Shown piece after piece: positions 5,283-14,530 of a stretch of DNA of 64,000 nt. Below the pieces are notes generated by a model. The model searched no databases. It was not told the origin of the DNA and saw only the letters and a program-made list of their open reading frames with translations. This DNA comes from an uncultured Cycloclasticus sp. (GTDB taxonomy: Bacteria; Pseudomonadota; Gammaproteobacteria; Methylococcales; Cycloclasticaceae). Every line of letters begins with the position of its first letter. Position 1 is the stretch's first letter. The translations under genes and the position numbers were made by a program. The stretch is from assembly GCA_913060865.1 (NCBI GenBank), contig CAJXTU010000002.1:124001-188000 (forward strand), written 5' to 3'.

Positions 5283-5316
5283 TTCTTATAATCGCTGCCA
5301 CTTTCTTTTTACGATA

Positions 5317-5702
5317 AAAAGCACCTAAGGCATATGCTTCATTAAGCAGATAGCAAACATCTGCCAAATGAGACTAAAAACGATCCAAGAAAAGGTCGCC
5401 CAACTATCGTTTGCTTCCCATAAAACTCATTTAGTATTGGTAAGTGCAAAAAAAAAGGGGGGGGGTTGAAGTCAAAACCAGCATTTATCTATGCCTTTGA
5501 CTTATTTCTCCCTTTATCGCGTTTTGAATTTATATATATTTGGACTAGTGTACGCGTTGTTTAACGCTTAGCGAGTTTAGCGCACACCCAAAGAAATATA
5601 AATTCATGCCATTAGAGTCCCTTTTTCTTTAGTTCGTTTTTTAGTCTCGCTTTGCGGTTGGCTCTTGAACCGCTTAGTGAGACTTATGCCTTAGGTGCTT
5701 TT
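5317..5702. repeat. 386-bp imperfect palindromic element (MITE-like or structured RNA)
   Basis: The ends are perfect 17-bp inverted repeats: AAAAGCACCTAAGGCAT at 5317-5333 and its reverse complement at 5686-5702. The similarity goes further. The left arm to about 5400 is an imperfect reverse copy of the right arm from about 5620, including GAGACTAAAAACG (5370-5382) against a one-base-longer partner at 5635-5648. Many of the mismatches are transitions, which keep G-U pairing. Additional hairpins lie inside (5346-5364 and 5643-5684), and a central palindrome at 5526-5605. About 125 bp of the left half (roughly 5400-5525) has no partner on the right and contains an A9G9 run. TA dinucleotides flank both ends (5315-5316, 5702-5703). 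No coding frame fits. It fills most of the 606-bp holC-valS spacer. Confidence 0.6.
5526..5605. repeat. Central imperfect palindrome of the 5.3-5.7 kb element
   Basis: It starts GAATTTATAT and ends ATATAAATTC. Inside these arms, TTTGG..GTGTACGCG on the left faces CGCACACCCAAA on the right, with small bulges, and a shorter GCGTT/AACGC hairpin near the middle. The whole 80 bp could fold into one long AT-rich stem. It forms the tip of the larger palindrome described at 5317-5702. Confidence 0.5.
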
Positions 5703-5850
5703 AGGCATACAAAAATAACGAACGCCCAGCGGCATCGAAATCTATAATCAATACCTAAACCCTAAAGCTGACAACAAGCAGCCATTTGCTTGCAAGGCAT
5801 TTTCAGCAATAAAACTTGCTTACCAATAACCCCCAAACCCCCAACAAAGC

Positions 5851-5856
5851 TATAAT
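5851..5856 (+). promoter_or_regulatory. Possible -10 box for valS
   Basis: TATAAT lies 32 bp upstream of the valS ATG at 5889, a plausible distance for a short leader. There is no convincing TTGACA-like hexamer 16-18 bp before it; that stretch is C/A-rich. valS may therefore have its own weak or activator-dependent promoter, separate from pepA-holC. Confidence 0.35.
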
Positions 5857-5888
5857 ACTGCCTCTAAAAATCAACACCTGCACACACG

Positions 5889-8654
5889 ATGGATAAAACA
5901 TACGCCCCCCACGACATAGAATCTCGCTGGTACAGCCAATGGGAAAAACAAGGCTACTTTGAACCTAAGGGAGGCGATAGTGCCTATTGCATTATGATCC
6001 CTCCCCCAAATGTTACCGGTAGCTTACACATGGGCCATGCGTTTCAAGACACCATCATGGATTCGCTCACCCGTTATCACCGTATGCAAGGACATAACAC
6101 GTTATGGCAAGCCGGCAGCGATCACGCGGGTATTGCTACCCAAATGGTAGTAGAACGCCAACTGAACGCCGAAGGTAAAACACGTCATGATCTTGGCAGA
6201 GAACCGTTCGTAGAACGTATCTGGGATTGGAAAGAACATTCAGGCAACACCATTACGCAGCAATTACGCCGCATGGGCACCTCTTTAGATTGGTCACGCG
6301 AACGCTTCACCATGGACGAAGGCTTGTCAAAAGCCGTTAACGAAGTATTTGTTAAATTGCATGAAGAAGGACTTATTTATCGCGGCAAACGCCTCGTTAA
6401 CTGGGATCCTAAATTACACACAGCGGTATCCGACCTTGAAGTTATCTCGCAAGAAGAACAAGGCCATATGTGGCATATGCGCTACCCTCTTAGCGATGGC
6501 AGTGGTGAACTGGTGGTAGCTACAACTCGCCCAGAAACCATGTTAGGCGATACCTGCGTAGCCGTTCACCCATCAGATGAACGTTACCAACACTTGATTG
6601 GCAAGACTATCAACTTGCCTCTATGTGATCGCGAAATACCTATCATTGCCGACGATTATGTCGACCCAGAATTTGGTACAGGTTGCGTTAAAATTACCCC
6701 GGCCCACGACTTTAACGATTATGACGTGGGGCAGCGTCACAATATGCCGCTCATTAATATTTTCACCGTTGATGCAAGCATTAATAATGAAATGCCTGAA
6801 GCCTACCGCGGTTTAGATCGCGTTGAAGCGCGTAAACAAGTTGTTAGTGATTTAGATGCCCTAGGTTTATTGGTAAAAGTTGAAGATCATCGACTCATGA
6901 TTCCTCGTGGTGATCGCTCGGGCGTTATTATTGAGCCCTTACTCACCGATCAATGGTTCGTCAAAGCAAAACCCCTCGCTGAACCTGCCATTGAGGCCGT
7001 TAAAAGCGGAAAGATAAAATTTGTACCTGAAAATTGGGACAAAACCTATTACAACTGGATGAACGATATTCAGGACTGGTGTATTTCTCGCCAAATTTGG
7101 TGGGGCCACCGTATTCCTGCCTGGTACGATGAAAACGGCAATATTTATGTTGGGCGCAATGAAGCCGAGGTCCGCGAGAAAAACAACCTAAGCAACGACA
7201 CCCCGCTTAAACAAGACGAAGACGTACTCGATACCTGGTTCTCATCTGCCTTATGGCCGTTTTCCACCCTAGGCTGGCCAGATAAAACGCCCGATCTCGA
7301 TACTTTCTACCCAACCAGTGTATTAGTAACAGGGTTCGACATCATCTTCTTTTGGGTCGCTAGAATGATCATGATGGGCCTAAAATTCATGGGCGATGTA
7401 CCATTCAAAGAAATCTACATCCACGGCTTAGTACGTGATGCAGAAGGTCAAAAAATGTCTAAGTCCAAGGGCAATGTCCTAGACCCCATCGATTTAATCG
7501 ACGGCATCAGCCTAGATCAACTCGTTGATAAGCGCACCAAGGGACTTATGCAGCCCAAAATGGCCGCTAAAATCGAAAAAGACACCCGTAAACACTTCCC
7601 CGATGGCATTCCCTCTTTTGGCACCGATGCCTTGCGCTTCACCTTTGCATCGTTGGCGTCTACAGGGCGAGACATCCGATTTGATTTAAACCGCATTGAA
7701 GGTAACCGCAACTTTTGCAACAAGTTATGGAATGCTACTCGCTATGTCTTAATGAACACTGAGGGAGAAGACACGGGGCTTGGTAATGACAACTGTATTT
7801 ATAGTTTGCCAGATCAATGGATTGTGTCACGCTTACAAAGAACCGAAGCAAGTGTGATTGCTTCTATTGAAAAATACCGTTTCGACTTAGCCGCGCACGC
7901 CTTGTATGAATTCCTTTGGAACGAGTATTGCGATTGGTATCTAGAGCTTTCAAAACCTATTTTACTAGATGATAATAGTTCTGCTGAACAAAAACGCGGT
8001 ACGCGCAAAACGCTCATTCGCGTACTAGAAGCCGTGCTCCGTTTACTGCATCCTTTTATGCCGTTTATCACCGAAGAAATTTGGCAACAAATCGCTCCAT
8101 TGGCAGGCAAAAAAGGCGACACGATTATGCTGCAAGCGTATCCAAAACCTGATGAAAGCAAAATTTCACCAACCGCTGAAAATGATATGCAATGGGTGAT
8201 GGATTTCGTTATGGGGATTCGTCAAATTCGCGGTGAAATGAACATTCCACCTAGCAAACCACTACCAGTGCTGTTAAATAACTGCTCAGAAAGTGACCTA
8301 ACTCGTTTAGATAACAATAGGCTTTTAGTGAATAAGCTGGCCCGTTTGGAGTCCATTACAACGTTAACCTCCACAGACGAAGCACCTCAATCAGCCATCG
8401 CCCTCGTTGGTGATATGCAAATCTTAATTCCAATGGCAGGGCTAATTGATAAAAACGCCGAATTAGAACGTTTAAATAAAGAAATCGAGAAACTTGAAAA
8501 AGAGGCCGCTCGCATCAGCGGCAAACTATCCAACGCCTCATTCATCAACAAAGCGCCCGCTGCCGTTATTGAAAAAGAAAAAACTAAACAAAGCGACATC
8601 TCAACAAAACTTAGCAATTTGAATGAGCAAAAAGAAAAAATCTCGACCCTATAA
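5889..8654 (+). CDS. valS: Valyl-tRNA synthetase
   Basis: 921 residues, a class Ia synthetase that charges tRNA-Val. The HIGH-type motif is HMGH in [12 protein letters not shown] (about residues 41-52), and the KMSKS motif is in [14 protein letters not shown] (about residue 523). The editing domain lies between, with the [11 protein letters not shown] segment near 217. The C-terminal anticodon-binding domain and a final coiled coil (about 855-915, rich in L/E/K) that contacts the tRNA elbow are complete. The start is at an ATG 32 bp after a TATAAT box. Its position after pepA-holC follows the E. coli order. Confidence 0.97.
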
Positions 8655-13450: not shown

Positions 13451-14530
13451 TCAATGCTCTAATTTACTAGATTGAATCTTATTTACAATTTTTAGTGCGG
13501 CATGTCCATCACCATAAATATCACCACCCAAAACTTTAGGTAATTTCATCTCCATTGATGCTGCAATAGCCCCTGCATCATACCCCACTAACCGATTAAC
13601 GCCCTGCTCAACTAATTCAACCCACTCTGTTTCAGCGCGCAGTGTCACACAAGGGACTTGATGAAAATACGCCTCCTTTTGGATTCCACCACTATCAGTC
13701 GCTATTAACCGTGCATTTTTCTCCAACATCGTCATATCAAGGTAGCCAACAGGCTCAATTATACGGATGGGTTCTTCAACTTTAATATCAAATAGCTGTA
13801 ATTGTTTTTTTGTTCGGGGGTGCAAAGGCAAGATAACGGGAACTGAAGAACTGGACAGACCTCGAATAATAGATGATAACCGTTGCTCATCATCCGTATT
13901 TTCTTGGCGATGTATCGTTGCCAAAACATACTCTTTAGAACTTAATGACAAAGCCTCTAAAATTGTACTTTTTTGCTCCGCTTTTTTAGAAAAGGCCAAG
14001 GCAACATCATACATAACATCACCCACTTGATGAATGTTGGATCGATCAACACCCTCTTTCAATAGGTTGCTCACCGCAAGATCTGTTGGAGCAAATAATA
14101 ACGTTGCAATATGGTCTGTTAATATTCGGTTAATCTCTTCCGGCATATTACGATTAAACGAACGTAATCCAGCCTCAACATGTGCCACGGGTATTTGCAG
14201 CTTAACAGCCGCTAAGGCAGCAGCTAATGTACTATCCGTATCACCATATACTAATACCCACTGAGGCTTTTCAATCAGCAGTAATTCCTCAATTTTCTCT
14301 ATCATACGGCCCGTGTTCTGACCGTGTGAGCCACCACCAACAGCTAAATTATAATCGGGTTTTGAAATACCCAACTCGTCAAAGAACACATCAGACATAT
14401 TCGCGTCGTAATGCTGACCCGTATGAACAAGCACCTCTTCTATAGCTTGCCCGCATTGTTTAAAAGCAAGAGAAACCACAGATGCCTTAATAAACTGAGG
14501 TCTTGCTCCGATGATTGTTATAATTTTAAT
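13451..14530 (-). CDS. wbpI: UDP-GlcNAc(3NAc)A 2-epimerase, WbpI/WecB family, with a probable AUU start
   Basis: 359 residues if it starts at the ATT at 14530. This gives MKIITIIGARPQFIKAS, the family's N-terminus with the GARPQF nucleotide-binding loop. Between the in-frame TAG at 14565-14567 and the GTG at 14479 there is no ATG, GTG or TTG. Starting at that GTG would remove the loop. AAAGGG lies 6 nt before the ATT. Other family motifs are present: HTGQHYDANMSDVFF, VYGDTDSTLA, HVEAGLRSFNRNMPEE and DSGGIQKEA. The FNRNMPEEINR stretch and the wbpB/D/E neighbours favour WbpI (making UDP-ManNAc(3NAc)A) over plain WecB. The enzyme is cytosolic and hydrolysis-independent. Confidence 0.85.
   Translation of the reverse strand: MKIITIIGARPQFIKASVVSLAFKQCGQAIEEVLVHTGQHYDANMSDVFFDELGISKPDYNLAVGGGSHGQNTGRMIEKIEELLLIEKPQWVLVYGDTDSTLAAALAAVKLQIPVAHVEAGLRSFNRNMPEEINRILTDHIATLLFAPTDLAVSNLLKEGVDRSNIHQVGDVMYDVALAFSKKAEQKSTILEALSLSSKEYVLATIHRQENTDDEQRLSSIIRGLSSSSVPVILPLHPRTKKQLQLFDIKVEEPIRIIEPVGYLDMTMLEKNARLIATDSGGIQKEAYFHQVPCVTLRAETEWVELVEQGVNRLVGYDAGAIAASMEMKLPKVLGGDIYGDGHAALKIVNKIQSSKLEH

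Follow-up and report, generated by a model that had tools for sequence, protein, structure and literature searches.

The stretch that fills the holC-valS spacer is, taken as a whole, probably an eroded copy, made of two units, of a palindromic element that is dispersed, modular and non-coding and that would fold on its pyrimidine-rich strand and spread in a non-autonomous manner. It is located in a window of 64,000 nucleotides, the whole stretch of DNA that was analysed. Judging from the covariation among its relatives, the pyrimidine-rich strand, present either in RNA form or as one particular single strand of DNA, may fold into a hairpin and a triple-helix pseudoknot, a predicted fold that can be likened to the telomerase/SAM-II type. 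The distribution of the copies suggests that the element spreads between genes as a non-autonomous mobile element, MITE-like in effect, that gaps between convergent genes are favoured as sites, and that one or two accessory genes may sometimes be carried between the element halves; the mobilising machinery might recognise the folded end rather than the end sequence. Sequence comparison revealed that further hairpins nest in the loops and stems of the units and that the units are usually paired outward. The structural family is well supported, and its mobility can reasonably be inferred. Throughout the text Y denotes the pyrimidine-rich strand, which is the + strand of the window for the right unit, and P the opposite one.

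The element between holC and valS

The two units of the element and their parts are listed in Table 1. Both outer edges (5291-5301 and 5728-5740) resemble the usual edge of a unit. The right unit shows 90% identity (blastn) to a second right-half copy in the same genome (G000:C3:107065-107281), which is located between genes that we take, from their translations, to encode SHMT and ABC-F. The left unit gave a weak match to the R1 covariance model on the - strand (E 0.3 in the window search). The pseudoknot of the right unit is eroded in the window copy (GTCCC vs AGGCA), few of its pairs being left; with the left hairpin truncated and the right pseudoknot broken, this copy looks inactive from its sequence. 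The run of nine A and nine G is the exact break point of the left long hairpin; it may be a tract prone to slippage, or else an artefact of the assembly.

Table 1. Positions of the element and its parts in the window.
Feature	Position	Strand	Remarks
Complete element as delimited here: a pair of inverted units with their intervening spacer	5291-5740		within the holC-valS intergenic region 5283-5888
Left unit, outer part	5302-5401	-	inverted identity of about 75% with both the right unit and the second copy in the genome
Left unit, pseudoknot stem	5302-5321	-	
17-bp repeat, left copy	5317-5333	+	edge of inserted hairpin module, not a transposon end
Left unit, inserted hairpin module	5322-5377	-	
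Left unit, stem 3' arm, mirror (third-strand) segment and pseudoknot 3' strand	5377-5401	-	GGTCGCCC at 5394-5401
Left unit, truncated arm of long hairpin	5403-5447	-	both arms kept in the relative G016 (L013/L056 comparison)
A9G9 homopolymer tract	5448-5465		at the break point of the left hairpin
Small spacer hairpin AAGTCAAAA..TTTTGACTT	5469-5503		between the units in relatives too
Right unit, complete, on the more stably folding (Y) strand	5510-5727	+	covariance model 108.7 bits, E 1.2e-24 (window)
Long covarying hairpin with conserved GCGAGTTTAGCGC apex	5510-5614	+	central palindrome of the earlier note
Right unit, pseudoknot / predicted triple-helix region	5615-5727	+	covariation seen at family level
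Right unit, pseudoknot 5' strand	5617-5621	+	
Right unit, predicted pyrimidine third strand	5622-5630	+	
Right unit, stem 5' arm	from 5632	+	
Right unit, inserted hairpin	5641-5697	+	
17-bp repeat, right copy	5686-5702	-	edge of inserted hairpin module
Right unit, loop and stem 3' arm	5698-5727	+	

An earlier note on this DNA had described a large palindrome with perfect 17-bp terminal repeats, nested imperfect arms and a central palindrome, and had proposed either a MITE or a structured RNA. The 17-bp inverted repeat is indeed present (two matches in the 64-kb window vs 0.32 expected at up to 3 mismatches), as are the nested arms (5306-5347/5672-5713 and 5358-5380/5638-5660) and the central palindrome (5525-5543/5588-5606). 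The repeats are not the ends of the element, however: homology with relatives runs outward to about 5303 and 5728, and a 56-nt hairpin nested in the stem of both window units accounts by itself for the seemingly terminal repeat. The supposed unpaired insert of about 125 bp (5403-5509) proved to be made up of the truncated left-hairpin arm, the A9G9 run and the small spacer hairpin. TA dinucleotides had been reported at both ends; the left one is there (5315-5316), while AG stands on the right side (5703-5704). A MITE of the IS630/mariner type, in line with the inverted 17-bp repeats and the multi-copy family, was thus rejected as highly improbable, since TA is one-sided, the 17-bp repeat is internal to a module and does not bound the copies of the relatives, and the ends vary in sequence, their pairing being what is conserved. 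Moreover, the choice between MITE and structured RNA may be a false one, as the family is a conserved structure that behaves in the manner of a dispersed element. In its folding the 386-base stretch surpasses 100 shuffles by far on both strands (z -7.8 on + and -6.9 on -). A lack of other copies and of covariation, which the note had named as speaking against itself, is not what was found: the repeat is dispersed, it has relatives and these display compensatory change.

Family matches were obtained by blastn in 15 of the 18 genus genomes, the source genome included, and a covariance model built from 15 genus units had matches in 16 of the 18, one to nine in each. The five model matches of the source genome (G000) are the window unit, the copy on C3, one at C6:83262, and a pair of adjacent, oppositely directed units at C5:124667-125068; the pair makes up a two-unit element flanked by convergent ORFs. 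The holC-valS spacer is 606 bp long here; holC was found in 17 of the 18 genus genomes, and in seven of the 17 (G003, G004, G005, G007, G009, G014, G017) the spacer measures 74-82 bp. Model matches lie inside the spacer in six genomes (G000, G001, G006, G010, G013, G016). Inspection by eye revealed remnants of a second unit type in G002 and G012, and in G011 a unit remnant with a transposase inside, presumably IS3-like; the spacer of G008 holds a YoeB/YefM pair (Pfam). The short spacers of seven relatives and the varied fillings elsewhere indicate that the spacer is a gain, as had been suspected, and also a hot spot. The G016 spacer (L056, G016:C20:13267-14139) holds two elements. In front of the second stands a duplicated 63 bp of the 3' end of holC (13620-13682), which gives the impression that this element carried its old flank along when it moved.

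Predicted fold of the unit

Comparison of the copies showed that each unit comprises 160-220 nt, with a long hairpin followed by a predicted H-type pseudoknot, the loop of which would pair with a segment beyond the stem. On the Y strand the long hairpin starts with CCCTTTATCGCG and ends with GCGATTAGGG; then come the pseudoknot 5' strand, the pyrimidine linker TTTTCTTTGG and the stem GTTCGTTTCTTTTG / CAAAAGAAATGAAC, the loop of which is paired with the segment preceding the linker, and a short unit edge, for example CGCCCTCGCGGCAGCGAAA, closes the order. Some copies harbour extra hairpins ending ACTTATGCCTTnGGT, nested within the stem or within the apex of the hairpin. Another gammaproteobacterium (L085, around 1600) has a REP-like GTAGGGTGGGTTAGACGCG..CCACC palindrome inside the hairpin of a unit.

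The pairing was assessed on an alignment of 15 of the 29 extracted genus units, namely those of at most 170 nt, which have no large insert. In these, 96.4% of the cells were paired vs 86.6 after shuffling, and 20 of the 54 pairs had changed on both sides vs 10.3 in shuffled data, none of the 500 shuffles reaching 20. The covariation score was 0.288 as against 0.100 shuffled and 0.025-0.062 in slid-partner controls; the helices had been predicted from the same alignment, except for the pseudoknot, which was named by the analyst. The pseudoknot helix itself was 93.3% paired, with three of its five pairs doubly changed. Outside the genus, at least four of the five pairs were present, in a fixed register, in 65 of 157 distinct loop/partner combinations, the null having a mean of 8.8 and a maximum of 20 (10,000 shuffles); for this test 215 of 238 instances had been kept beforehand by a mirror identity of at least 5/7. 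In the named-genome set, among the matches listed, 58 of 87 had at least four consecutive pairs (null mean 11.5, maximum 23, 5,000 shuffles). Since the instances share ancestry, the shuffle p-values are too small. Additionally, the hairpin 5' arm was present in 109 of the 119 listed loci, all of which were used and had been chosen solely by an exact match to the 3' 22-mer, which carries no information on the 5' arm.

The linker is the mirror image of the purine strand of the stem, the arrangement that would be expected for a parallel pyrimidine third strand, as in a triple helix. Stem and mirror covary among 61 distinct pairs (table 297/62/26/42, odds ratio 7.7, p 4e-13), and the result held for G alone with the consensus G position removed (p 4e-6); both p-values are too small because kinship among the sequences is uncorrected, and the orientation filter of the test (purine-rich third segment) could favour the result. 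This orientation-filtered test superseded a looser triplex scan (p 0.012), which yielded mostly false positives. G shifts jointly in AAGAGAAA/AAAGAGAA, AAGAAAAA/AAAAAGAA and others. In two groups (G188; G019, G177 and G380 with G176) a T of the purine strand has C in the mirror, that is, a Y-strand G opposite T-A, and G.T-A is a tolerated exception in pyrimidine triplexes. Mirror covariation was missing in CAACGAAA, AAAAGTAA, CAAAGGAA, the genus copies with AAAATAAA and one AAGAGAAA, and the mirror rule is broken in some copies, for example in G141, L204 and L223.

The remark of the earlier note that many arm changes keep G-U pairs was confirmed in so far as one strand is favoured: the fold of Y is more stable than that of P for 27 of 29 genus units (p 3e-7) and for 111 of 151 others (p 2e-10). 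The pseudoknot stem has 58 A-C vs 17 G-T mismatches on the P strand, which means mostly G-T on Y, in a count that treats both wobble senses alike. A G-U count of 82 vs 4 was biased, because the structure had been predicted on that strand, and was replaced by the comparison of folding stabilities. The higher stability of Y and its prevailing G-T mismatches speak for RNA, or for a single defined strand of DNA, rather than for a cruciform in double-stranded DNA.

Whole elements are imperfect palindromes, being 67-76% self-inverted over 498-584 columns (L155, L145, L276, L278, L307), and palindromes attract template-switch repair. It could be supposed, accordingly, that the element is a by-product of DNA repair, in which template switching (quasi-palindrome correction) keeps palindromes self-complementary while the fold is unselected. 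We consider this very unlikely, since template switching does not give rise to mirror repeats, whereas stem and mirror segment were seen to covary; furthermore, the pseudoknot strands are not adjacent hairpin arms, and a strand bias is not expected from such repair.

Distribution, pairing and possible mobility

The core motif AAAAGAAASKAACCAAAGAAAA, with at most 2 mismatches, occurs in 50 of the 369 class genomes sampled, a few of which look like chance matches; since the motif is almost identical to its mirror image, a reversed control also has matches in some genomes. In the named-genome collection at least 119 stretches carry the core. The 80 titles listed include Methylobacter, Luteimonas, Chitiniphilus, Mucilaginibacter, Aquimarina, Cyclobacterium and Thiobacillus, as well as metagenome-assembled genomes labelled Deltaproteobacteria, Nitrospirae, Cloacimonadota, Ignavibacteriae and Selenomonadales, labels that may be contaminated. 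The bacteria with a core belong to several phyla, and the complete record of Ilyobacter polytropus (Fusobacteriota) has the core in 12 places. It is nearly absent from the plasmid and phage collections, where four BLAST queries, two of them from the window element, matched 2 plasmid records; with one search in E. coli included, matches were limited to one Aeromonas caviae and one Ilyobacter polytropus record. Carriage by plasmids or phages was rejected on this near-absence from both collections. A known RNA family was also discarded: Rfam 15 gave nothing above the gathering threshold in the window except a tRNA, and its six matches in eight loci with units were all below the gathering score. 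No description of a triple-helix pseudoknot repeat was found in open-access full texts, which miss most subscription papers.

Neighbouring cores less than 800 bp apart were outward in 22 of 36 cases (317-696 bp), direct in nine and inward in five, an outward excess of p 5e-6 against one quarter in a count that leaves out 25 listed duplicate or overlapping loci. Between 700 and 6000 bp, 9 of 14 were outward (p 0.002). When copies within a genome were compared, no target duplication was readable, as the inverted similarity continues into the flanks.

Five pairs at 1.1-1.75 kb (L083, L139, L153, L289, L301) consist of 79-88% inverted copies that bound a single larger ORF, and a sixth pair, found with the model in G006, encloses two. 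The cargo scans covered these seven larger ORFs of six pairs; small repeat-made ORFs and the wider outward pairs (3.8-5.2 kb; L167, L209, L223, L237) lay outside them. Three of the seven match PADLOC candidate defence families (PDC-S33, PDC-S57, PDC-S59), one is HEPN_AbiU2 (Pfam), one has an ion-channel domain and two are without a match. No PADLOC match was obtained for ten genes that immediately flank four of the pairs (3/7 vs 0/10, p 0.05); the Pfam families of these ten include RecJ, peptidase M3 and glycosyl hydrolase 77. These few cases are suggestive of a defence-like cargo between paired units. A cargo tied to one gene family was dismissed, since of the ten RelA-like homologues of one cargo gene in the 369 class genomes none was flanked by cores. 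In G002 (L355, G002:C73:51000-61000) a unit at 6555-6706 stands just upstream of an IetA-type defence ATPase (6954-8063, PADLOC E 5e-128), and in G005 a unit is near a gene with an antitoxin-type match; neither gene was counted as enclosed. In L139, L153 and L083 the repeats yield short ORFs sharing an FF..KK.VTK-like stretch, which may be annotated elsewhere as hypothetical proteins.

Among core-bearing loci of at least 2,500 bases, which alone were counted, convergent gaps were over-represented (30/87 vs 40/211, p 0.006). This preference, together with the strand-specific folding and the covariation, would also suit a structured RNA or mRNA 3' element useful to the host (a stabiliser, an attenuator or a small RNA) that is repeated by chance. 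We regard this explanation as unlikely: the presence at the same site is patchy, the outward inverted pairs put the folding strands on opposite DNA strands, and neither the modular nesting nor the cargo agrees with it.

As regards the mover of the proposed mobile element, the alternative with somewhat better prospects than a host-useful RNA, although still doubtful, is a RAYT-type system, in which long self-complementary inverted-repeat units are moved by IS200-like Y1 (tyrosine) transposases, like the "TIRtrons" of PMC3733652. Y1_Tnp was found in 15 of the 18 genus genomes and was enriched in the core-positive genomes of the class (40/50 vs 201/319 others, p 0.024; two of the 40 near E 4e-4). 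In the genus, 5 of 26 Y1 matches are less than 6 kb from a unit as against 0.6 expected (p 4e-4, for a distance chosen after looking). Against a RAYT-type system, units were present within 1.5 kb at one of the 20 Y1 loci examined, and there on one side of Y1; no Y1_Tnp was found in the nearly complete core-bearing genomes G019, G043, G136 and G380; and the GTAG tag is missing from the element. Y1_Tnp was not found in 10 of the 50 core-positive genomes, and a Y1 transposase as the sole mover was rejected as it is not universal among them. Clusters of Y1 transposase genes and units were observed in the genus (L352, L353, L354, L355, L356). A retroelement in need of a resident reverse transcriptase was discarded because RVT_1 is missing from most core-positive genomes (found in 8 of 25), and a TnpB guide-RNA element because the TnpB zinc ribbon PF07282 was over the cut-off in none of 25.

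Relation to known repeats and structures

Triple-helix pseudoknots occur in telomerase RNA, SAM-II and ENE. The family resembles them in its strand order, the pyrimidine linker being, to judge from the covariation, parallel to the purine strand of the stem; unlike them, it is a repeated bacterial element and has no Rfam match above gathering. If the predicted fold is right, the triple-helix pseudoknot would be a widely repeated structured element in bacteria that has no Rfam match.

REP, BIME and REPIN repeats (PMC3733652, PMC3116915) are 20-40-bp units tagged GTAG or CGTC, and the inverted repeats of TIRtrons can be self-complementary (PMC3733652). Like these, the present family consists of dispersed extragenic palindromes which form dimers and have a possible link to Y1 transposases; unlike REP and REPIN, the window element bears neither tag, GTAG and CGTC being absent from 5291-5740. 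With MITEs, for example those of Coxiella (PMC5896051), the family shares short, non-coding, inverted and dispersed copies, but it has no common end sequence, the ends being conserved as structure.

The closest known kind is the intrastrand-triplex repeat (BoxC/PIT). According to the main text of PMC4666352, the BoxC, PIT and TM_ECO repeats are intergenic, dispersed, without a known enzyme, and made of a hairpin with a mirror third strand; some stand in inverted pairs, their sites vary between related strains, and the BoxC type has been known since the 1990s without an assigned function. The family agrees with that description in being intergenic and dispersed, in its Watson-Crick hairpin with a mirror third strand, in its inverted pairs and in its variable sites. 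A hairpin with a third segment mirroring the purine strand was found at the family level, the window copy being eroded. The BoxC consensus CCCTCNCCC N3-6 GGGNGAGGG N3 GGGNGAGGG is absent from both strands of the window and present in 6 of 357 loci. All six exact BoxC motifs in 1.24 Mb of loci lie less than 500 bp from a core, in 16% of the bases (p 1.5e-5), two of them being one inverted pair and two coming from one genome; with a looser motif 6 of 9 are near cores (p 8e-4). One more exact match stands outside the counted set, in L317, a locus that had been retrieved on account of a RelA-like gene. The family may thereby give the BoxC-type triplex repeats a physical neighbour and a testable origin.

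A far-reaching reading, which we put forward tentatively and hold to be no likelier than the RAYT-type system, is that of a widespread unnamed class of bacterial mobile elements, whose two ends would be recognised as a folded triple-helix pseudoknot and not by their sequence, in which copies and BoxC repeats would be nested, and which would act as a carrier for single defence genes. Should the units indeed enclose defence genes, they could serve as a marker for finding such genes. Compared to BoxC, which PMC4666352 in its main text describes as G/C-rich, about 36 nt long, with loops of 3-6 nt, and with no mention there of "pseudoknot" or AAAGAAA, the triplex of the present family is A/T-rich and is combined with a long hairpin and with a pseudoknot that covaries, in units of 160-220 nt and elements of some 400-700 bp. 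The pseudoknot, the size, the breadth and the cargo at least set the family apart from the BoxC-type repeats.
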